A DNA stretch of 64,000 nucleotides, taken from the NCBI GenBank assembly GCA_026075535.2, contig AP026540.1:12462001-12526000 (forward strand). The letters run 5' to 3'. The notes below the pieces were generated by a model that saw only the letters and a list, made by a program, of their open reading frames with translations, was not told where the DNA came from and did not search any database. Source of the DNA: Tricholoma matsutake. Lineage: Eukaryota; Basidiomycota; Agaricomycetes; Agaricales; Tricholomataceae. Below, piece by piece: positions 1 through 38,490 of this stretch. The position numbers were made by a program, and so were the translations under genes. Numbering within the stretch: position 1 is the first letter of the stretch; each line of letters begins with the position of its first letter.

Positions 1-367
1 GGCTGGCTTGGTTCTCCACCTTTCTTAATTATGACAAAGATACTTCCAAATACCTCCTTTGTCAAAATGTTTGTGAAATATCTGACATTGTTGGAAATAC
101 TCATAATTTACAGATAATTCACAGATGGAGGATTCCCTGATGGATGCTCAGTAAAAAAGAATTTCATGTGGATGTCATGTGGTGTCATGTGGTAGTTATG
201 TAACTGTCAAAAAAACAGCATTTGGAGTAACAACCAAATTGATTAACCGAAAGAAGGACAAGTGATTGAGCCATTCCCTTGCAATGGTGCTTCCACCTCC
301 ACCTCTCATGGCTGATGTGGCCTAACTTTTTGGACTTCAAGGATAAAGGGAAGAAGAACAGTACCCA
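1..367. other. Unassigned sequence left of copia-1
   Basis: No gene is recognised here. The clear match to the copia-2 polyprotein begins only near 376. This stretch may be the decayed 5' half of copia-1 or foreign flanking DNA, and no LTR or gag motif is visible in it. The 5' LTR of copia-1 is therefore absent, truncated, or outside the window. Confidence 0.4.
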
Positions 368-3300
368 TTGCAATCAAGCTCCAGGGTTCCTATCACTGTG
401 AAAGATGTTAATGGTTGGGCTTTCACTGTCATGATTGACTCTGCCTCAATGGCCCCCCCACCTGACCCACCAGTGGCCCATGTGGCAGGTTTTGCTGGAC
501 TGACTAGTGATCAGCTGCCTACTGACAATGATGGATCAGAATACGAGGGTTGGATTGTCACTGAGGATGAGGAAATGACTAGTATTGATTGGGCTCATAA
601 TTCTATTACACCCATCACTAATGCACTTTCTGTTGAACCTCTCAATCAAGCAAGCCATTCTCAACTATCCATTGACAATCATCCATTTATCATTGATACT
701 GGGGCATCCGTCCATATTTCCCCCAACAAATCGGATTTTATCACTCTTCATCCAGTTCAGCCACATTCGGTCAAAGGTGTTGGCGGCACATCAATTGTTG
801 CAGTCAGAGTTGGTGACATCAAATTATGGGTTGCTTGAGGCACATCAATCACATTACATAACACCCTCTATATTCCTAATGTGGCAGTTTGGCTTATTTC
901 AGTGGGAACACTGGCTGACAACTCAAACGCTACAGCCCATTTTGACAACTCCCTATTTTGGATCACTGACAAATCCACTGGAGCACTCATTGCTCAGGGA
1001 TCTTGACTCTCCAAAAAACTCTACACTCTTAACCTATATTCTGCTACCGCTGATCATGCATTTACCATACACAAACCTAGAAACCTAGAAACCTGGCACC
1101 ATCATCTCGGTCACACAAATTATCAGTCTCTCTGGGACATGGCAAAAAGGGGCACACTCACAGGTGTGCCTATTAGCTCTATCCCTAAAACCCCTAAATG
1201 TGAATCTTGTGTTCTCAGTAAACAGACCAGAACTCCTGTTCCTAAGACACGTGAAGAGGGGAGAGGGCATAGAGCAACGAGAAAGCTGGAGAAAGTGTGG
1301 GTGGACTTATCAGGCCCCCATGCTATCAAATCTCGGGATGGGAATTTGTATGTTATGGATATAGTCAATGATTACACGTCTTTTCCTTGGTTGATACCTC
1401 TGTGAAATAAGGACGACTCTTTTCCAGAACTGAAAGCCTGGGAACTTGCTTGGGAAAATGAGACTGGACTAAAAATTGGGACCTACATCACTGATAACAG
1501 CAAACTGAAGTCTCACAAGATGCAGACTTGGTTGAAAATGCGAGGTACAGACCAACAATTTACTGCTCCACATACTTCTGCTCACATTGGTCATGTAGAA
1601 TGGATGCACCAGACTCTCATGGCTAAGGCTCGGACTATGAGGATCTACTTGGAATTGCCACCATTTCTTTGGGATGAATTTTACTTGACGGCATCCCATT
1701 TGCATGCAAAAACCATGACTCAATCACTACAGGGTGTTACACCTTGGGAATTATGGTATGAGTGCAAACCTGATTATTCATACTTGCAGGAGATCAGCTG
1801 TTGAGCTTTTGTCCTCATTCCTAAGAAGAATAATCCCAAAATCTTTGAGCAGTCAATAGAATGTGTATTAATTGGTTACAACTCCAAATCTAAATCATAC
1901 CATTGCTACAACCAGGCAACTAGGAAGGTCCACAGTTCATATCATATCAAATTTCTCAAGAGTCATGATGGCCATTCACCGGACATCCCTCCTGCTGAGT
2001 CAACACGCATGGAAATTCAGGACAATAAATCTATTCATACCTACCTACCTGTGAACGATGAGGAGGATGATCCCTTCCCTGCCCACAACCCCATCATTGA
2101 AGTTGACGATAGATGCAAGCAAGCACCAACACTGCTAGCACCTCCTGTACCCCCCATACCCCTGTGCTGTTCTTCTCAAATTCCTGTCCATACTGAAAGG
2201 CATCCTGATGGTGGATCAGCCACCACTAGGACAGCAAAGGCCATTCAGGAATCCAAAGAAAGTGCCATATGCATCAAAGAAGCACAGCATGCTTGTCGTG
2301 CCACTGTGGTAGCTGCTCAATCACTTAGCCCTGATCCAACACCCCCCCCCAACTGATGAAAATAACCCTTCGATCATCAATCATGATCAGAATGATGTCA
2401 TCAAAGACCTAAGTCGATCACTGGAGAACCTCAATCTAGGTGATCAGGCACAACAACTTTGAGCCCTGATCTCGGAGATGGCAGATTTTGATCCGGAATC
2501 TCTTCAATTTGAAGATGAACCGAGGACATGGGAGGAGGCTAAGATCACCATTGATGCTGAAAGATGGAGGGAAGGCTATCTGGATAAGTTGAAATCCTTG
2601 AAAGACATGGGAGTTTACAAGCTAGTTCCACAAGCCAAAGTACCCCCAGGGAAGCGCATCCAAAAAGGGAAACCAATCTTCTATATTAAGCAAAATGAAA
2701 CTGGAAAGCCTGTCCACTGGAAAGTACGTGTCGTATTCAAAGGCAATGAACAAATCTATGGTAGAGACTATACTAAAACCACCTCACCCACTGCACACAT
2801 GGAATCTTGGTGGATCCTCTTGCATATTGCTGCCTCTTTGGGCTGGGATGCGCAACAGATTGACATAAAGACAGCTTTCCTATATGGTTTTCTACTGGAT
2901 GATGAGGTACAATACATGCAACAACCTTCTGACTTTGAAGAACCTGGGAAGAAGGACTGGATATTAAATGGGGATTTACTTGCCTATCTTGTGAGTCTTG
3001 CATATACTATTGCAGATCAGACTCCAGCATTGTTATTGCGGCAGTTCATGTTGACAATTACCTGTCAATTGCTGATTCAAAGGAGGAGAATGAGCAGTTT
3101 AATGACCAAATGTGTAAAGTCTGGACTATTTCTGAGCTTGGGATGGCACATTTTATTGTAGGGATTGCCATATCTTGGGACCGGACCATGCATACCATTG
3201 CACTTTCACAGATGGCACTTATCAACAAGATAGTCAAACAATTTGGCCAGAAGGAAGCACACCCAGTCTCTGCGCCTCTGGAACCTGGTTCCAAACTATG

Positions 3301-4015
3301 ACAGCCTAACCCTCAGCTCATTCCCTCTGAAGACTGTCTACAGCTCTCTAAACTCCCATACCGATCACTTGTGGGATGTCTCCTATACTTGGCAATTTCT
3401 ACTCGACCCAACATTTCACATGCAGTACAACAACTATCACAATATCTTGACTGTTACACTTTTGAACATTGGGCTGCCGCCATCAGGCTGGTGAGATACA
3501 TCAAGGGGACAAGGGATCTGAAACTTTATCTTGGCAGTGATCTCCCCATAAACCTTCATGCTTTTAGCGACTCTGACTGGGCTAATTGTCTTGATACGCA
3601 TCGCAGTGTTGGAGGCTATATTTGTTCTCTTGGGTCTGGCGCTGTCTCTTGGATGTCCCATAAACAGAAAGTCATTGCTACCTCATCTTGTGAAGCTGAA
3701 TACATAGCCACCTTTGAAGCAGCTAAGGAGTGTACTTGGCTGCACACTCTTCTACACTCCATCAATTATCCACAGACAATCCTGATGACTATTTACTGTG
3801 ACAATTCAGCGGCAAAGACCCTGTCTGAAGACTCCCTTCTCCACTCCCATGTCAAACATATCAATATCAAATACCATTTCCTCCACAAATGCATCCAATC
3901 CAATAACTTACATCTTTCTTATGTGCATACCCATCAGAACATTGCCAACATGTTCACAAAGGCTCTTGATGTTAAACAATTCACCTACCTGAGGAACTTC
4001 TTGGGTCTCCACTAA
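368..4015 (+). pseudogene. copia-1 gag-pol remnant (PR-IN-RT-RNase H)
   Basis: Visible in order: an aspartic protease with the motif FIIDTGASVHIS (368-838); a GAG-pre-integrase/zinc-binding and integrase start with KCESC and VWVDLSGP (1139-1405); the rest of the integrase core with GHVEWMHQ (1520-1804); reverse transcriptase of RVT_2 type from FDPESLQFEDEP to YGFLLDDEVQYMQQ (2478-3161); and RNase H with SDSDWANC and CEAEYIA, ending at 4015 (3371-4015). Several stops and frame changes separate these parts, for example a TGA at 836-838 and frame changes between 2.9 and 3.4 kb. By comparison with copia-2 this is a once-continuous polyprotein. It is non-functional. Confidence 0.9.
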
Positions 4016-4034
4016 TGCAATTCCATGCGAGGAG

Positions 4035-5565
4035 TAGTGTTCAAGGGTCCAGCCCATAAGACTGGAAAAAGACTGGACCCTTAACTGAACTTAACTGCAA
4101 AAGACCAAACCATCAGTCTCAGTTCACCCCATATTGGGGTTGGTTCAGTTGTCAGTTGATCACTTTTGTAAACTCACGAAAACCAATGTAAGACCAGTCT
4201 TTTAGACATATTTATACTACTAGATATATAGCATAAGTTGAGTACAAAATACAGAAATAAGTATCCAAAAGTATATAAAAGAACAAAATATAAATACTAC
4301 TATTACTATTTATGGTATATATACATAAAGTGGAACAAGCCCAGGGGAAAAAACAGTTGTTTGGTGAGTGCTTATATACCCTGTGGTCACGTTTGTTCAC
4401 CCAAAAACAAATGTGGCACCACTTCCCAGATGACCTCCCATGACCACAACAATAACACCAATGATGCCATTTCCATGAAAATGACCACAACAACCAAACA
4501 AACACAGAGTAGATGGCCCAAATGACAAACAAGGGTCGTTTGTGCCCTAGGGTACATTGTTTTATAGTTAATTCTTTTCTTTTACTAACTAACTAACTAA
4601 CTTAAAGTTTTTTCTTCTTTTTTAGGTACTTTTCATTTTGATAATGAAATCGCCCACCCACCAAATGATGCCTTTGCTGCCGCTGTGAGCTGCTGCTTGC
4701 AGGCCAGCATTGGGCTGCTTCTGGACCACAACAACCATGCCCAACGCCGCCGCTGTGAGCCTCTGCTTGCAGGGTGGCAACGGGCCCTTTCCTGGACAAT
4801 GACAAATAGCGGGATGATGAGGATGACAAATCAGGGGGACGAGGACAAATTAGGGGGCTCTGCTGCAGACAGCCCAAATGATGCTAGTCGTCGTTTGGGC
4901 TGTTGAGTATGGTTTTTTGAAATCTTATTTCTTTTACTAATGATTATTTTCTTAGTTTCTTATCTTTTGCTAATGATGCTGGGCCCTCGCCATACACCAC
5001 CCATGCCCTATGTCACCGCTGTGAGCTTCTGCTTGCAGGGTGGCAATGGGTACCGCCACTTCCAGACAGCAACAGCAATGTCACAGCACCACCAACCCAC
5101 CTATGAGCTACTGCTCATAGGGGGTAATGGAGGTGCCGATGACAAACAATGCACACAGGGAGGGACTGACAAACGACAGGGAGCAGAAAACAGATGACAA
5201 CAAGAACAGGGGAGGGGGCAACATGCGATGGGGAGACAACCAACGACAACCACTCTCGACCCCCCACCCTCACTACAAACGTGAGATGGTGGGGCTATTT
5301 TATTATTATATTGTTCTTCTTTGTTTTCTTTCAGTTTTTTAGCAACACCACTGCGAGCAACTGCTTGCAGGGTGTAAATATTATTAGTTTTATCTATGAT
5401 ATATTATAATTTAGTTAGACTCATAAAAACAGCCCGAAGACTGGTCAAAACCAGTCTTTTTGGTTGCGGTCCATCCAATTTGGGCATTGATTTGGACCGG
5501 TTTTGGTCTCTGGTTGACCCCCTTGGGGGTCAAAAAACTGGACCAAACTGGACCCTTAAACACTA
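4035..5565. mobile_element. hAT-type non-autonomous element, copy A, inside copia-1
   Basis: The ends are inverted: TAGTGTTCAAGGGTCCAG on the left and the complement of TAGTGTTTAAGGGTCCAG on the right. They are bordered by a perfect 8-bp direct repeat GCGAGGAG (4027-4034 and 5566-5573). An 8-bp target duplication with ends beginning TAGNG is the hAT superfamily hallmark. Subterminal regions are rich in ACTGG/CCAGT words, as expected for transposase-binding repeats. No transposase ORF is present. The middle (about 4.3-5.4 kb) holds a different repeat with hairpins and recurring TGCTTGCAGGGTGG words, probably a nested insertion. Copia-2 preserves the uninterrupted sequence at the equivalent site. 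Confidence 0.88.
4330..5395. repeat. Hairpin/'TGCTTGCAGGGTGG' repeat module inside copy A
   Basis: The word GTGAGC(N)nCTGCTTGCAGG recurs near 4686, 4754, 5021 and 5348, often followed by GTGGCAAYGGG. Self-complementary units GCCCAAATGA...CGTTTGGGC occur at about 4515-4545 and 4869-4900. The same words return at 57.57-58.03 kb outside any hAT ends, so this is probably an independent repeat that entered copy A. There is a short ACTA/AACT microsatellite at about 4583-4601. No protein was recognised. Confidence 0.55.
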
Positions 5566-5592
5566 GCGAGGAGGAGTGCTCACGGTGAGGAG

Positions 5593-5946
5593 TGTTGAGA
5601 ATGCTCACTATCACACTGTGAGCATACACAATCATGCATTTGATGCATGTACTATTTATAGCCTATCCCTTTGATGTGTCATTTCATAAGCCCCTTTGTG
5701 CCATTTATTCCTTTCATTCTTTGTGTAGCTGGCCTCACATATATATAGAGGAGACAGTCAACTGTTCACCTCAGTCACTTATACAGAGACTGAGGTGAGC
5801 ATGTTTGTTATTACTCGATTATGAATCATTACTTACTGTACCTATAGTTAAACTCTGATTATGCTAGGTACAGTATTTGTATTACCTACAGTCACTTATA
5901 CAGAGACTGAGTTAAACTCTGATTATGCTAGGATTGAATTTCTATA
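5593..5946 (+). repeat. 3' LTR of copia-1
   Basis: It begins TGTTGAGAATG and ends near TTTCTATA, where CA is expected and appears mutated. It lies directly after the polypurine tract. A TATA-like run sits at about 5739-5747. Exon-like E1 lies at 5772-5794, a GT-AG intron-like segment at 5795-5847 (53 nt), E2 at 5848-5868 and a linker at 5869-5888. E1 is then repeated at 5889-5911, joined directly to a repeat of E2 at 5912-5932. Both repeats are identical to their first copies. Confidence 0.88.
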
Positions 5947-14186: not shown

Positions 14187-14202
14187 GTGTGAGCACCCTT
14201 AA

Positions 14203-14548
14203 TGTTGGAATCGCACCGTGAGTCCATAACACTTCTGATGTGTTTGATGCGTGTGCTATTTTTAGCATTCCCTTTGATCCGCATGGTCGGTTTGTGTTTA
14301 AGTTTCCCCTTGTCTCTTTTCCTTTGACACACATCCTTTTGTTACGCATTACACATATATATATCTTCAGTAGTTTACTTTATCACCTCAGTCACTTATC
14401 CAGAGACTGAGGTGAGCTATATTTACTATACATATTTATTGATGCATACTTACTCTACTACAACAGTTGTTTATACTAGGTATAGTACAGATTAATACAG
14501 TCACTTATCCAGAGACTGAGTTGTTTATACTAGGATTTACTTTCTACA
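14203..14548 (+). repeat. 5' LTR of copia-2
   Basis: TATA-like ATATATAT lies at about 14355-14363, some 30 bp before E1. E1 is 14389-14411, the intron-like segment GTGAGC...CAACAG is 14412-14466 (55 nt), and E2 TTGTTTATACTAGG is 14467-14480. A 17-nt linker runs 14481-14497. E1 is then repeated at 14498-14520, joined directly to E2 at 14521-14534. The 37-nt joined copy is identical to E1+E2 without the intron. The last 14 nt, ATTTACTTTCTACA, are the U5 end. Confidence 0.95.
14412..14466 (+). other. Intron-like segment in the copia-2 5' LTR leader
   Basis: It is 55 nt, starts GTGAGC, ends ACAACAG and has an ACTTACT word upstream of the acceptor that could serve as branch site. Its length and signals match the introns of neighbouring host genes. 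Removing it produces exactly the sequence found again at 14498-14534. Equivalent segments are at 19514-19568 (3' LTR), 5795-5847 (copia-1) and 27017-27068 (solo LTR). Confidence 0.8.
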
Positions 14549-14559
14549 GGTTATGGGCC
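14549..14559 (+). promoter_or_regulatory. Primer-binding site for an initiator tRNA-Met half molecule
   Basis: GGTTATGGGCC directly follows the 5' LTR. From memory of the eukaryotic initiator tRNA-Met anticodon arm, this is its complement around the CAU anticodon. It is the same kind of internal tRNA primer site used by Drosophila copia. The tRNA 3' end would not pair here. Confidence 0.75.
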
Positions 14560-14758
14560 ATTCTCGTTGTCTTTGAACAACGGGAGAAAGTATCCTAGCC
14601 ACTCGACGTTCTGCTTTGTCATACCTTCTGATCCATTTCCCCGATCATTTTTGATCTCGGATCAATTCCTTTGTCTTTCACGGACCCGGCTGCTCTACCA
14701 TTGCGTCTCTCTCATCTCCCTTTGCACACTCGTTGTCCACTGACCTCGGTTTTCTATC

Positions 14759-17700
14759 ATGGGTACCGATACTGTTGATCCCCCGTCCATTTCCCCTATC
14801 AAACTTTCTGTGCAATATACTGGGGAGAAGCTCGACAAACTTAAATCAAATTACAAAGAATGGTGCGAGGAGATTATTATTGCTTTATCATTAAACGGCC
14901 TTTATGAGTATGTTATGGGTGGAATACCTGAGCCCACTTCTACTGAACTCTGAGCGCTTGCCAACTGGAAGGCGAATTCCCGCCTCGCATATGCGTTTAT
15001 CGTGTCCAGTGTCTCTCCATCTGAGCATAAATTCCTGGACATTAAAGTAGGCCCTGATGCGAACTGGAAAATTCTCCAGGACCGTCACCAGAAGGAAGGC
15101 CCCGTTCGGCAGGTCCAGCTCTTACAACAAGCGCTTTCCATCCAGTGTACAAAGGACACACCACTCCCCGAGATGGCAGAAAAGATTTGCGCGTTAATTG
15201 AACGCGCTTTTGCCATGGGTGATATACAGGCCAATCTTCTTTGTTGCATCGCTCTCCTTAATTCCCTTAGTGATAATTTTCCACATGCTCGCTCCATTAT
15301 TTCATGGGATATTGCTGCTTCTTCCCTCTCAGCTCCATATGGCTCGAAGGATATCAAATTATTTCTGGAGAACGAACAATCACTACTTGAGAATGATCAG
15401 TGTGGTGGTTCCAAAAACCATGCTGCTTTTACCGCACAGTCCAAATCTTCCAAGCTCCCTAATGCACCAATCTGCACCAACACTAACTGTGGGAAACTTG
15501 GCCACATGAAACAATATTGCATTAAACCTGGCAGTGGTATGGCTGGGAAATCACTCAAGGAGTCGATCGCTGCTCACAGGGCTGCCCATGAGAAGAAATC
15601 CTTACTGGCTGGCACTACGAAGGTTCCTATTACTGTGAAGGACATTAATGGTTGTGCCTTCACTGTCATGGTCGACCCCAATATTCCTACCCCACCTGCA
15701 CTGGAATTTGCCGGGCTTGCTCACGACCCGCTGCCTTTAGACCCTTCGGACGCGCTGGAATATGAAGGATGGGTTGCTGTGGAGGAGGAGCTCACCACTA
15801 CAGTGGACTGGAAACACCATACATCACCCATCCCTGACAATGCGCTCACCGTGGAACCCCTTTCACAGACTTGTCGCTCACGCATCACCTTAGACGCTCT
15901 CCCCTTTATTATTGACTCTGGGGCTACAGTACATATATCCCCTGACAAGTCTGACTTCCTCACCTTACGACCCATTTCACCTCACTCTGTCAGAGGTGTC
16001 GGTGGTTCATCTATTGATGCTGTCGGTGTTGGTGATATACAGCTAAGAATAGCCTGGGGCGCATCAATTATTTTACGTAATGCCCTCTACATCCCAAAAT
16101 CGGCAGTTTGGCTGATCTCAGTGGGCACGCTGGCCGACAACTCTAATGCTGTCGCACATTTTGACAGTAACACATGCTGGTTCACTGATAAATCCTCCGG
16201 GGCCTTCATAGCTCGTGGATTGCGCATATCTAGAAAGCTTTACATGCTCAACATTGCATCGGCCCAGGCTGATCACACGCTAACAGTTCACAATACCCCT
16301 ACTCTCGAGACATGGCATCGTTGTCTGGGTCATGCAAATTACCAGGCACTCTGGGATATGGCCAAGAAGGGTGCTTTCACTGGTGCACTGCTCGCTTCAT
16401 TGCAAAAATTACCTAAATGTGATTCCTGTGTCCTTGGCAAGCAGACCAAGTCTCCAGTCCCCAAGAAACATCAGGAGGGACCAGGCCATAAGGTGACAAG
16501 GAAGCTGGAAAAGGTGTGGGTGGATCTATCTGGACCACATTCAGTAACGTCGCATGCAGGGAACCATTATATCATGGATATAGTAGACGACTACACCTCA
16601 TTCCCATGGTCTATACCATTGCAAAATAAAGATGATGCTTTCATGGAACTTAAAGCTTGGGAACTTGCCCAGGAGAATGAAACCGGCCTCAAAGTCGGGA
16701 CCTATATCACCGATAACAGTGAACTTAAATCGCACGAAATAAAGGAGTGGTTGAAGACTCATGGTATTGATCAGCGTTTCACAGCACCTCACACCTCGGC
16801 TCACATAGGCCATGTTGAGTGAATGCATAGGATGCTTATGGCTAAAGCACGCACTATGCGAATATATGCTGGTCTGCCCGCTTATTTGTGGGACGAGTTC
16901 TACCTCACAGCTGCCCACTTGCACGCCAAGACTACGACCCATTCACTAGCAAGCCTAACGCCTTGGGAATTATGGTACGAGAGAAAACCTGATTATTCTT
17001 ATCTTTGGGAGATAGGTTGCAGGGTGTTTGTGCTTATCCCAGGAAAGGATAATCCCAAGATACTTGAACGATCCATCAAATGCATCTTGATAGGCTAGGA
17101 GCCAAAATCAAAAGCATATCGCTGTTATAACCGCGCAATGTGTAAGGTTCATATTTCATATCATGTCCGCTTTCTTGAGAGCCATGAAGGCTATTCACCA
17201 CCTTCAATTGATGAATTAGGAGAGGATGATAATATTGGGTCCAGTGGTAGTCTACCCACATTCCTTGGTCCTATTTTACAGCAAGATGATGATGTTGAGT
17301 CTTCTCATGAATTCACTCTCCCTGATGCGCCCTCTAATAGTTTCACGACACCGCCACCGCCACCTGTCACCCAGCCTATTCGTCGATCTACCCATGTTCT
17401 AATACCCACAGACAAAAACCCCAATGGTGGCCCTGCTATTACTAGAACAGTGGCTGCAGTGCAAGAATCATTGGAGAGTGCTGTGCATGTAAAGGAGGCG
17501 CGGCGGGAGCGTCGGGCTGCTATTGTGGCTGCACGATCGGATCACATTACAGATCAATCCTCCGATCATGATCGTGATGACATGGAAGAACTCCAACAAT
17601 CATTTCATAATCTTGATTTGGGTGATCAAGCGCATCAATTTCAGGCCCTGATCTTGGAAATGGTAGATTTTGATCCGGAGTCACTTCAATTTGAGGATGA

Positions 17701-19261
17701 GCCAAAAACACGGGATGAAGCCAGAAGATCTGTTGATGCAACGCGATGGGAGCGTGGATATCTGGAGGAATTGAACTCATTGAAAGAAATGGGGGTATAC
17801 AAACTAATACCTAGGTCAGAGGTTCCACTAGGGAAACGTATTAGGCGTGGGAGACCGATTTTCCACATTAAGCGCAATGAGGCGGGTACCCCTATTAGAT
17901 GGAAGGTATGCCTAGTCTTCAGAGGAAATGAACAAATTTATGGCAGGGACTACACCAAAACTACCTCACCGACTGCGCGCATGGAATCATGGTGGATTCT
18001 CTTACACACTTGGCTGGAACACACAACAGGTCGACATAAAGATGGCCTTTCTTTACAGCTTACTTCTGGACGATGAAATTCAATATATGCAGCAGCCTGC
18101 TGGTTTTGAGGAGCAGGGCAAGGAGGACTGGATTTGGCAACTACAGTGTGGCTTATATGGTATGAAACAGAGTGGGCGCATTTGGAATCAGACCCTTAAC
18201 GCGCAGATGCTAAATTGGGGATTCACCCGCCTCTCATGCGAGTCCTGTATCTATTACCGTAAAACTGACACTGGTACAATTATCGCTGCTGTCCATGTCG
18301 ACGACTATCTAACCATCGCCGACTCCAAGGACGAAAACAAGTGCTTCAAGAACTAGATGCGCAAAGTATGGACTATCTCCGAATTGGGGATGGCACATTT
18401 ATTATGGGTATTGCTGTCTCATGGGACCAAGACATGTGTACTGTTGCACTTTCACAGACTGCTCTTATTGACAAAATAGTGGAACAGTTTGGTCAGAAAG
18501 AAGCACACCCCATTTCTGCCCCATTGGACCCTGGTTCGAAACTATGGCGCTCCAATCTGCAATGTATGTCCCAGGATGCCAGGAACACCCTGGCCAAGCT
18601 TCCCTACCGCTCTCTTGTCGGATGCTTATTGTACTTGGCAATATCTATGCGTCCCGACATTTCTTATGCAGTACAACAGCTCTCTCAATACCTTGATTCA
18701 TACTCCTTAGAACACTGGAGTGCTGCTATATGGCTAGTATGTTATCTAAAGGGAACTAGGGACTTCAAGCTTTATCTGGGCGGACAGAACCCCATTCTCC
18801 TGCATGCCTATAGTGACTCCGACTGGGCTAATTGCCATGACACTCATCGCAGCATTGGGGGATACATGTGCTCTCTTGGCTCAGGCGCAGTGTCTTGGGC
18901 AGCACATAAACAGAAGGTAGTGGCAGCTTCCACCTGTGAAGCAGAATACATAGCGGTGTTTGAGACCACAAAGGAATGCATCTGGTTGTGTACACTACTA
19001 CACACTATTGATTTTCATCAAAACTTGCCTACTACCATCCTCTGCGACAACAACACTACGAAGACTTTATCCGAGGACCCATTACTTCATTCACGTGTTA
19101 AGCACATCGACATCAAATATCATTTCCTATGCAAGCATGTACAGTTGGGCGACCTAGCTATCACTTACATCCACACCTGTGACAATGTAGCTGACATGTT
19201 TACTAAAGCCCTGGAACCTAAACATTTCGCCATCCTTCGTGCATCTCTTGGCCTTCATTAG
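14759..19261 (+). pseudogene. copia-2 gag-pol polyprotein, broken
   Basis: One frame runs from ATG 14759 to about 18008. It holds gag with a CCHC-like knuckle (CTNTNCGKLGHMKQYC); protease FIIDSGATVHIS; pre-integrase WHRCLGH...CDSC; integrase D (VWVDLSGP), D (YITDNSE) and E (HIGHVE); and reverse transcriptase start YGRDYTKTTSPTARMESW. RT continues in another frame with AAVHVDDYL (the YxDD equivalent), then RNase H SDSDWANC and CEAEYIA to the stop at 19261. Lesions are TGA at 14951, TGA at 16820 (TGG in copia-1), TAG near 17096, a deletion near 18008, TAG at 18353, and loss of one T near 18400. It is not functional as it stands. Confidence 0.93.
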
Positions 19262-19292
19262 TGGGATTCCATGCAAGGAGGAGTGTATTCAC

Positions 19293-19304
19293 GGTGAGGA
19301 GGAG
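19293..19304 (+). promoter_or_regulatory. Polypurine tract of copia-2
   Basis: GGTGAGGAGGAG lies directly before the 3' LTR, the expected plus-strand primer. The same tract occurs before the copia-1 LTR. Confidence 0.8.
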
Positions 19305-19650
19305 TGTTGGAATCACACCGTGAGTCCATAACACTTTTGATGTGTTTGATGCGTGTGCTATTTTTAGTATTCCCTTTGATCCGCATGGTCGGTTTGTGTT
19401 TAAGTTTCCCCTTGTCTCTTTTCCTTTGACACACATCCTTTTGTTATGCATTACACGTATATATATCTTCAGTAGTTTACTTTATCACCTCAGTCACTTA
19501 TCCAGAGACTGAGGTGAGCTATATTTACTATACATATTTATTGACGTGTACTTACTCTACTACAACAGTTGTTTATACTAGGTATAGTACAGATTAATAC
19601 AGTCACTTATCCAGAGACTGAGTTGTTTATACTAGGATTTACTTTCTACA
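19305..19650 (+). repeat. 3' LTR of copia-2
   Basis: It is the same length as the 5' LTR, with eight differences, all C/T or G/A. Three fall inside the intron-like segment. None falls in either copy of E1 or E2. Confidence 0.95.
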
Positions 19651-26808: not shown

Positions 26809-27157
26809 TGTTGAGAATGACACCGTGAGCGCATGTGAACACTGTATTGCCAAATACGGATCTTGGCATGTTAATTGATGCGTGTCCTATATTTAGTGCA
26901 TCCCTTTGATGCGCATGTTTGTATCCATGTCATGGATACCTTTATACCATTCTTCTTTATCTAACCTGATCATATATATATACCAGATCACCTCAGTCAT
27001 TTATACAGAGACTGAGGTGAGTAACGACTTATTATTTAGTAGTGATTGATTACTTACTGTACTTATAGTTCACTCTTGTTGTACTAGGTACAGTACTAAT
27101 ATAGTCACTTATACAGAGACTGAGTTCACTCTTGTTGTACTAGGTTGATTTTCTACA
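26809..27157 (+). repeat. Solo copia LTR
   Basis: It is 349 bp, TGTTGAGAATG...TTCTACA, flanked by ACGCG (26804-26808) and ACGTG (27158-27162), a 5-bp duplication with one transition. It has E1 at 26994-27016, the intron-like segment GTGAGT...TTATAG at 27017-27068 (52 nt) and E2 at 27069-27088. A joined repeat of E1 (27102-27124, two C/T differences) and E2 (27125-27144, identical) follows. Confidence 0.9.
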
Positions 27158-37254: not shown

Positions 37255-38490
37255 AACCCAAACAAAACCCACAAAATGGCTTCGGATGGTATAACACAAG
37301 TCAGAGGAAGGATGCGAGGCCCTCTAGATGTCACCTGTCAGACCGACCGTCAAATAGTCATAAAACAACTGCTTGTCGAAGCAGTTCAAAGCTAAAAGAA
37401 TGTGTTTCGAGGACTTGCAATGATTTTTGAGATGTTGCAATGATTTTTGAGATGTTGCAATATTTTTCGAGGTGTTGTGATATTTTTCGAGGTGTTGTGA
37501 TATTTTTCGAGGTGTTGTGATATTTTTCGAGGTGTTGTGATATTTTTCGAGGTGTTGTGATATTTTTCGAGGTGTTGCGATATTTTTTGAAGTTTTTTCG
37601 GAGAAGGTTCAAGGAATTTCGAGTGCGCAAATATGTTCAGATGCAAGATTGGGGGACTAGACGAGTAGTAGAAGCAAAGCAAAGGTGAATCAAGGGAAAT
37701 GAGAGCGAAAATAGCATAATGCGAGGAATTTCGAGGAAGTTTAGTGTAAAACACCAAACTTCAGCCTGAATAAGACTAAACCAAACTCTCAAATCACTGT
37801 GATCTGGGAGGAAGACGATGACTTTCTTGTTTTTCTTTGTATCTAGTACATCTTTTTATATAAAATAAAGAAAGTACCTAAAAGGCTAGAGAACATGAGG
37901 CAAACATGTGGAAAACTCGAGGCAAAAGACAATATAAGTATATCAGAACAATAAAGCGAGACTAGAAGGGGTGAATATAACACATGATGAAGAAATGATA
38001 AGAAAGAATAGCTAAAAGTGGACTGTCCTTGTTATAAATTGAATAAAACATCAGAAACTGCTTTGAGTGGATTGTATACATGCACATGTGGTCGAAATGT
38101 GTTCGAGATACTCGAGATAGTGTCCCATGTGTCCAGTATGCATCCAAAGATCATTTGAATGGGAAATACTGTGTCTGAAGATGTTTTTCAAGGTTCAATG
38201 TTTCTCAAAGATTTTCGAAGTTTCTTCAGACTTCATTCGTGGCTCAAAATCGGTGTGATATTGTTTGACAATGGTAGGGGATACGTCTGGCATGTGTGCG
38301 ATGATTATTCAGATAGCGATATAGTGTCCAATGTCAATTTGCGATGTTCGACGATTTTCGAAGTCAGTTGAGGAAATATTGGACTTGTTCAAAGGCCGAT
38401 ATCACTGCAATATTGCTCGAAACTGGTTCGGAACCCATTGATGATGTTCCAAGTGTATATCCTGAGCTGTACAAAGGTCAGGGGAATTGT
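37255..38490 (-). repeat. Dispersed repeat, inverted sister of 56490-57402
   Basis: The complement of this stretch matches 56490-57402 over nearly its whole length (for example TATATAAAAAGATGTACTAG, CTCGAGTTTTCCACATGT, GGACAGTC...TTTTAGC). A TATAAAA box followed by a pyrimidine-rich tract suggests an LTR or promoter-bearing repeat, but no TG...CA boundaries or duplications were fixed. This copy has gained the 20-bp minisatellite at 37.4-37.6 kb. Confidence 0.65.
37413..37595. repeat. 20-bp minisatellite, about nine units
   Basis: Units of the type TGATATTTTTCGAGGTGTTG repeat head to tail. Two outer units differ (TTTTTGAGATG), and the central ones are identical. Because 20 is not a multiple of 3, long open frames appear on minus (repeating NTSKNITTPRKISQHLEKYH). 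They are a by-product of the array, not evidence of a gene. Confidence 0.85.

Follow-up and report, generated by a model that had tools for sequence, protein, structure and literature searches.

A group of Ty1/copia-type retrotransposons in the genome of Tricholoma matsutake probably has its terminal redundancy made by splicing, with a second, intron-free copy of the leader exons in each long terminal repeat (LTR) being rewritten in every cycle from the spliced leader, a reading to which we attach a probability of roughly three in four. The LTR at the centre of the analysis lies in a window of 64,000 nucleotides, meaning the whole stretch of DNA that was analysed (contig C3, 12462001-12526000), and the genome searched comprises 161,040,721 bases in 13 contigs.

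The element at 14203-19650 is a Ty1/copia LTR retrotransposon, as judged by domain order and by paired LTRs with a target-site duplication: Pfam domains Retrotran_gag_2, gag_pre-integrs, rve, SH3_retrovirus and RVT_2 follow one another in order on the plus strand between the LTRs. Below, the window family denotes the copia-type family of LTR 14203-14548, and a and b mark the first and the second copy of an exon. The features, in window coordinates and all on the plus strand, are as follows.

14203-14548, + strand: 5' LTR of the window family, 346 bp, TGTTGG...TCTACA, with target-site duplication CTTAA at 14198-14202
Upstream part of 14203-14548, + strand: U3, with the TATA box and then E1a downstream
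14356-14364, + strand: TATATATAT box (TATA), about 30 nt upstream of E1a
14384-14414, + strand: inverted repeat of 10 bp, CACCTCAGTC/GACTGAGGTG, covering the putative start site and the 5' splice site
14390-14411, + strand: E1a, presumed first exon (from sequence), 22 nt (AGTCAC...CTGAG), with the putative transcription start at its A in a CA initiator context
14412-14466, + strand: intron-like segment, 55 nt, GTGAGC...CAACAG, in which TACTTAC ends 13 nt before the segment end
14467-14480, + strand: E2a, presumed second exon (likewise)
14481-14497, + strand: spacer TATAGTACAGATTAATA, 17 nt, mostly TACAGT... in other families
14498, + strand: junction base, the single base before E1b, variable between elements
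14499-14534, + strand: E1b+E2b, intron-free copy (E1b 14499-14520, E2b 14521-14534), the proposed true R and proposed landing site of strong-stop cDNA
14535-14548, + strand: U5, 14 nt, then the presumed primer-binding region (GGTTATGGGCC...)
14954-18356, + strand: copia-type gag, integrase and reverse transcriptase pieces, with frames interrupted in this copy
19305-19650, + strand: 3' LTR of the window family, structured as the 5' LTR, with CTTAA directly after

The arrangement that the initial annotation had described, E1, a 55-nt GT..AG segment and a 14-nt E2, followed 17 nt later by E1 joined to E2, is directly visible here and was, if anything, understated. Its duplicated E1-E2 stands, while its E1 of 23 nt and its 37 nt of identity require trimming, as E1 is 22 nt long and the 23rd shared base (C at 14389 and at 14498) is coincidental, because 14498 varies between copies. 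An AG micro-homology at the E1/E2 junction allows the deletion to be written in three registers, one of which is GT..AG.

Two further LTRs of the window belong to other families with the same design.

5593-5945, + strand: LTR of a second family; E1a 5773-5794, segment 5795-5847, E2a 5848-5868, E1b+E2b 5890-5932
26995-27144, + strand: part of an LTR of a third family; E1a 26995-27016, segment 27017-27068, E2a 27069-27088, E1b+E2b 27103-27144

Both have an E1 near that of the window family and a different E2, and in each of them E2a and E2b are identical. The left window edge (353-5945) is occupied by a related copia element, with pol pieces mostly 58-75% identical and one stretch at 40%; LTR 5593-5945 looks like its 3' LTR, and between the pol end at 4012 and this LTR sits an inserted element of about 1.5 kb, the ends of which resemble inverted repeats.

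A split-repeat scan of the whole window (X, a gap of 30-120 nt, Y, then X and Y joined within 260 nt; 9-nt exact seeds) returned 9 groups on the plus strand and 10 on the minus strand. Three of the plus-strand groups are LTR 14203-14548 and those at 5911 and 27124, all three with a GT..AG register. The other six, together with six minus-strand groups, fall in a tandem array of 20-nt period near 37.5 kb (37478-37570), where three of the plus-strand groups also include a GT..AG register, among 19-37 registers each; the remaining four minus-strand groups, near 57.73 kb, are without one. Twenty dinucleotide-shuffled windows, scanned on both strands, yielded no split-repeat group, and a chance origin of the split-then-joined repeat is ruled out by the two scans.

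Genome-wide, with up to 3 mismatches allowed, a pattern of E1 plus donor matched 1313 sites, among them those of the window family, and the reversed pattern matched none. Eighty of 100 listed loci were fetched as the other-family sample, obtained with a pattern that fixed most of E1 and the GTGAG donor, and a script found a second E1 in 65 of them; a third E1 flagged in L021 was absent on inspection by eye. The window family itself has 131 to 135 sites in the genome and contributes 82 second-copy LTRs, its own two in the window among them, to a pooled set completed by the other-family sample, the two other window LTRs and one LTR in L033. Several LTR insertions occur in two or three copies with near-identical flanks (L121/L122/L157, L120/L123/L156, L118/L125/L154, L142/L148, L124/L155, L110/L116 and L143/L147) and are, by these flanks, segmental duplications on C1. 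Nine such duplicates (L116, L125, L154, L148, L155, L157, L123, L156 and L143) were removed before the pooled count. Of the 158 LTRs examined in the pool, 16 had no second E1 by our criterion and were not counted further, and 142 have a second copy. For other copia groups, a scan of 12 of the 30 loci L036-L065 gave one split repeat, without a GT..AG register (L039), a result of little weight since the LTRs may fall outside the stretches scanned. A large matsutake retrotransposon group appears, then, to have in its LTR an intron with flanking exons and, beside it, these exons once more without the intron; the layout is likely of single origin across the sampled families, since they have both it and a near-identical E1 in common.

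The piece missing from the second copy is GT..AG in 137 of the 142 LTRs, congruent with the earlier proposal of an exact loss as opposed to an arbitrary indel; the GT side of this count is partly built in, since 57 of the 142 were retrieved with a pattern containing the donor, as was much of the window-family sample, whereas neither the AG side nor the second copy formed part of a pattern. Four of the five other LTRs have one changed border base (L013, L091, L134, L147), and the fifth, L103, has one base too many at the junction of the second copy. The segments are 44-59 nt long, and a CTNAY branch-like motif lies in the last 30 nt of 128 of 133 of them, mostly 12-15 nt from the end; the LTR segment hence combines the GT..AG borders, fungal size and branch-like motif that characterize spliceosomal introns. 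It had been suggested to align genomic LTRs for exact loss of this segment, with length differences unrelated to its boundaries speaking against the idea. The alignment contains few extra indels: the second E1 of L137 is 15 nt short (L136, the probable 3' partner, is intact), L110/L116, which represent a single insertion, are without 10 nt of the first E2, L132 is without 10 nt at the second E2, and L097 has two extra tandem copies of a 19-nt E2 piece, after E2a and before the spacer. We read these indels as private changes of later date, since the design is exact in family members that do not have them. A pairing that encloses E2a is possible in many families between TACTGTACC, close to the end of the intron, and GGTACAGTA, where the spacer begins, and is weaker in the window LTR. 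Between the 3' end of the intron and the spacer, 43 of 133 LTRs have complementary runs of 8-11 nt, as compared to 2 of 133 with a shuffled spacer, and 85 of 133 have runs of 5-6 nt, a class about as large as the window family; we put no weight on this stem.

The promoter signal precedes the first copy. The TATA-like run reported about 30 bp before E1, TATATATAT in the window LTR, recurs across the pool, with TATATA or TATAAA located at -45 to -20 before E1a in 137 of 142 LTRs, as opposed to before E1b in 1 of 142. The suggestion that E1 starts the transcript, that the segment is intron-like and that a spliced leader was reverse-transcribed agrees with both this placement and the frequency of the GT..AG cut, and on these grounds seems sound.

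The base preceding E1b behaves like no other position of the LTR. In an alignment of the window family with one LTR per element (346 columns, 52 LTRs), a single column, 14498, has three or more transversion variants. After merging the likely pairs L017/L018 and L023/L081 into one element each, the junction base across 50 elements is C in 24, A in 11, G in 10 and T in 5, as compared to 19 transversions and 473 transitions for the other 345 columns together; this overwhelming excess of transitions suggests cytosine deamination of methylated or silenced copies. L023 and L081 (C6:1414750-1415550 and 1408900-1409500) are a 5' and a 3' LTR with the common target-site duplication CAAAC, about 6 kb apart on opposite strands, which suggests an inversion inside or beside one element. 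In the other families (60 LTRs) the junction base is T in 18, C in 17, G in 15 and A in 10.

Within elements this freedom disappears. In 30 LTR pairs matched by the 5-bp target-site duplication (28 identical, 2 with one mismatch), the two LTRs agree at the junction base in every pair, 30 of 30, with 8.5 expected and a maximum of 20 in 100,000 permutations. The 29 pairs measured have 8 to 20 other differences each, in total 344 transitions and 20 transversions, and in the pair L173/L014 the junction base is concordant and the preceding base differs. As LTR pairs agree at this base yet differ elsewhere, its variation seems to arise before integration, once per element. Non-templated bases are found at the retroviral U3/R border after strong-stop synthesis, and a free border base, alike in both LTRs, is the mark of R regeneration by strong-stop transfer that we observe here. 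It is as expected if minus-strand strong-stop cDNA had gained a non-templated base at its 3' end and kept it through first-strand transfer, and it marks where the copied RNA 5' end joined U3-derived sequence.

The two exon copies also remain in step. E1a and E1b differ at 21 of 3124 sites in the 142 LTRs, and E2a and E2b at 45 of 2376 sites, 37 of the 45 being transitions, the latter figure flattered by E2 blocks that the alignment itself delimits. In 29 window-family LTR pairs, no a/b mismatch is common to both LTRs and five are private to one; therefore none was likely present at insertion. Among 20 representatives chosen by us, the mean E2a/E2b identity is 0.97 within an LTR as compared to 0.69 between LTRs, the own E2 copy is the best match in 17, and the intron-like segments are 0.70 identical between LTRs. 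Eight of the 13 families with at least two members are without a majority a/b difference in E2, including three with seven or more members. The other five (n = 2, 3, 6, 2 and 2) have one such difference each, all of them transitions, and two of these five also have majority E1 differences, 1 and 2 in number. Shared E1/E2 mismatches in L118/L125/L154, L142/L148 and L110/L116 were considered as fixed copy differences and rejected, since near-identical flanks make each set one insertion, segmentally duplicated. The earlier interpretation of a reverse-transcribed spliced leader is accordingly supported as regards origin, whereas a single past event is not, since the junction base and the familywise E2 agreement point to re-creation in each cycle.

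We propose the following cycle. Transcription would start at E1a, with the TATA box at about -30, and the 5' leader would be spliced, such that the RNA serving minus-strand strong-stop synthesis begins with E1-E2-U5. The strong-stop cDNA would end at the E1 start, often gain one non-templated base and transfer to E1b-E2b near the RNA 3' end, which matches the spliced leader and may hence act as R. Extension into the spacer, E2a, intron, E1a and U3 would then copy the 3' LTR, where these remain unspliced, so that E1b-E2b would be rewritten from spliced RNA in each cycle and the upstream intron kept. Since the join precedes E1b but the TATA box precedes E1a, the intron must be missing from any RNA that has its start at E1a and serves as the template for E1b. 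Transfer of an unspliced leader would put the free base before E1a, where C is found in 141 of 142 LTRs (fixed by the search pattern for 57 of them), and the 5' leader therefore seems to be spliced. Conversely, an E1-E2-spacer form, as a spliced first copy would leave, was found at no site for the window family with up to 3 mismatches allowed, versus 135 and 131 sites for normal copies, and so the 3' copy seems not to be spliced. Transfer may occur by E1b-E2b pairing or by end-to-end joining at the spacer, and the data fit either.

The agreement of E1 follows from any splice that joins E1a to a U5-side exon. That of E2a and E2b needs E2b to be rewritten too, which a single splice from E1a to E2b does not explain. 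Two splices, E1a to E2a and then E2a to U5, would rewrite E2b, the alternative being one splice from E1a to E2b; template jumping between the E2 copies may replace the second splice. The right edge of E2a is CTAG/GTACAG in most families and that of E2b CTAG/G (slash at the edge), which would suit a further short intron running from the spacer to the end of E2b, with GTACAG as a weak donor.

How the 3' LTR intron would escape splicing may relate to the inverted repeat around the donor, through a hairpin that forms fully only with U3 in the RNA. The full hairpin CACCTCAGTC/GACTGAGGTG is predicted at -17.0 to -19.2 kcal/mol in 19 representatives, and one of its arms is located in part upstream of the start site, so that only RNA reading through U3, as in the 3' LTR, would contain all of it. 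The predicted mean unpaired fraction of the 5' splice site is 0.23 in RNA starting at E1a versus 0.12 with U3 in the 19 representatives, a comparison in which the search pattern fixed most of the inverted repeat for the other families. As this computed difference in accessibility is modest, and the donor is no freer in the E1a-start RNA in 3 of the 19 (L097, L101, L107), we offer a U3-dependent hairpin over the donor as a proposal.

Two variant LTR forms bear on this scheme. A U3-E1E2-U5 form is found in six LTRs at four places, including two elements that have it in both LTRs with matching target-site duplications (one with one mismatch); both a landing of strong-stop cDNA on E1a and a deletion between the E1 repeats would produce it. 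In these six LTRs, U3 is 91-97% identical to that of the window LTR, little or no further off than the common form. An E1-intron-E2-U5 form was recognized by inspection in 12 of the 80 sampled loci and at one site in the window family; among the 15 of 80 loci where the script found no second E1, L137 has a shortened one, and L094 and L126 are otherwise broken. We considered this form as the ancestral one and rejected it, as the duplicated insertions reveal later deletion to be the origin of at least two such LTRs: L122 is without spacer, E1b and E2b, while L121 and L157, the same insertion by flank, have them, and L143 compares likewise with L147. In the element L020/L206 the 5' LTR is without the second copy and the 3' LTR has it. 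E1-intron-E2-U5 LTRs hence arise, at least in part, by post-insertion deletion between the E2 repeats.

Could the LTR instead be an ordinary one, with transcription starting at E1b, R equal to E1b-E2b, the E1a-intron-E2a part a relic in U3 and the free base the usual U3/R border effect? The junction base sits exactly at the position of an ordinary U3/R border, and the window family has a TTTATA run 24-29 nt upstream of E1b, outside the TATATA/TATAAA criterion. Yet the TATA box is placed before E1a almost throughout the pool, a relic would drift, whereas the two E2 copies of an LTR agree despite the differences in E2 from family to family, and the GT..AG cut would be left without reason, all of which renders this account improbable. 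Less probable again is one ancient capture, with a spliced leader entering the LTR once and both copies passively inherited since. The layout and the near-identical E1 common to the sampled families speak for it, but E2a and E2b should then diverge along with the families, which they largely do not, and it gives no reason for a single free column of 346 that agrees within LTR pairs.

The remaining two accounts we hold to be very unlikely. An intron may have been gained by the first copy after a tandem E1-E2 duplication, with U3-E1E2-U5 as the ancestor; the existence of that form, in both LTRs of two elements, speaks for it, though the account addresses origin only and leaves the junction base and the copy agreement unexplained. 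Moreover, the closeness of the six U3 regions to the window LTR makes an outside position not evident in what is an unrooted comparison, and landing on E1a would equally produce the form. Slippage or gene conversion at the DNA level between short direct repeats, as a means of keeping the copies alike, has no better prospects: repeat deletions after insertion do occur (L122 versus L121/L157, L143 versus L147, L020/L206), however such events delete the second copy and would not rebuild an intron-free one, nor would they make one base vary freely from element to element and yet coincide between the two LTRs of each.

The element resembles other Ty1/copia members in its copia-type gag, integrase, SH3-like and RVT_2 domains, its 5-bp target-site duplication and its paired TG..CA LTRs, and differs by the intron-bearing leader and the intron-free copy thereof. 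For its pol, named relatives occur in Hypsizygus, Lyophyllum and Termitomyces. Introns in LTR retrotransposons and splice donors in R are already known. Excerpts of PMC12786077 describe plant Ogre and EVADE as LTR retrotransposons with functional introns, spliced transcripts and subgenomic RNAs; these excerpts do not describe the introns as lying inside the LTR, where the intron-like segment of matsutake is found. Foamy viruses, according to excerpts of PMC3694450, have their major splice donor inside R, in the LTR and downstream of the start site, and the RNA structure at that donor is not the same in RNA of the 5' LTR as in that of the 3' LTR, which includes U3 bases. The matsutake LTR likewise has a putative splice donor after its putative start site; the same excerpts describe no intron-free leader copy in the LTR, and the matsutake hairpin is a predicted one. 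In retroviruses, as excerpts of PMC4668388 outline, strong-stop cDNA extends up to the 5' end of the RNA, and its transfer relies on R complementarity; the scheme proposed here likewise combines strong-stop with R complementarity, differing in that the border precedes the second copy and the promoter the first. The initial annotation knew of no described LTR with this design, and in the open-licence full-text literature, covered mostly through search listings, we found no LTR with an intron and its own spliced copy and no R rebuilt from spliced RNA.

An intron inside an LTR should be lost at the first reverse transcription of a spliced leader. The matsutake group appears to have turned that problem into its means of replication, and to have retained this mechanism while many families diverged. 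We consider it somewhat better than an even chance that the RNA ends become complementary only after splicing: the spliced leader E1-E2 would be R, splicing would be the step that permits first-strand transfer, the intron would persist through an RNA life cycle in spite of its removal from each leader, and the stored copy, rewritten in each cycle, would hold the exons in step across many families. If true, this would be an LTR retrotransposon with a terminal repeat that depends on host splicing, and the junction base would be a natural record of strand-transfer events in a eukaryotic genome, through which strand transfer becomes readable from genome sequence.
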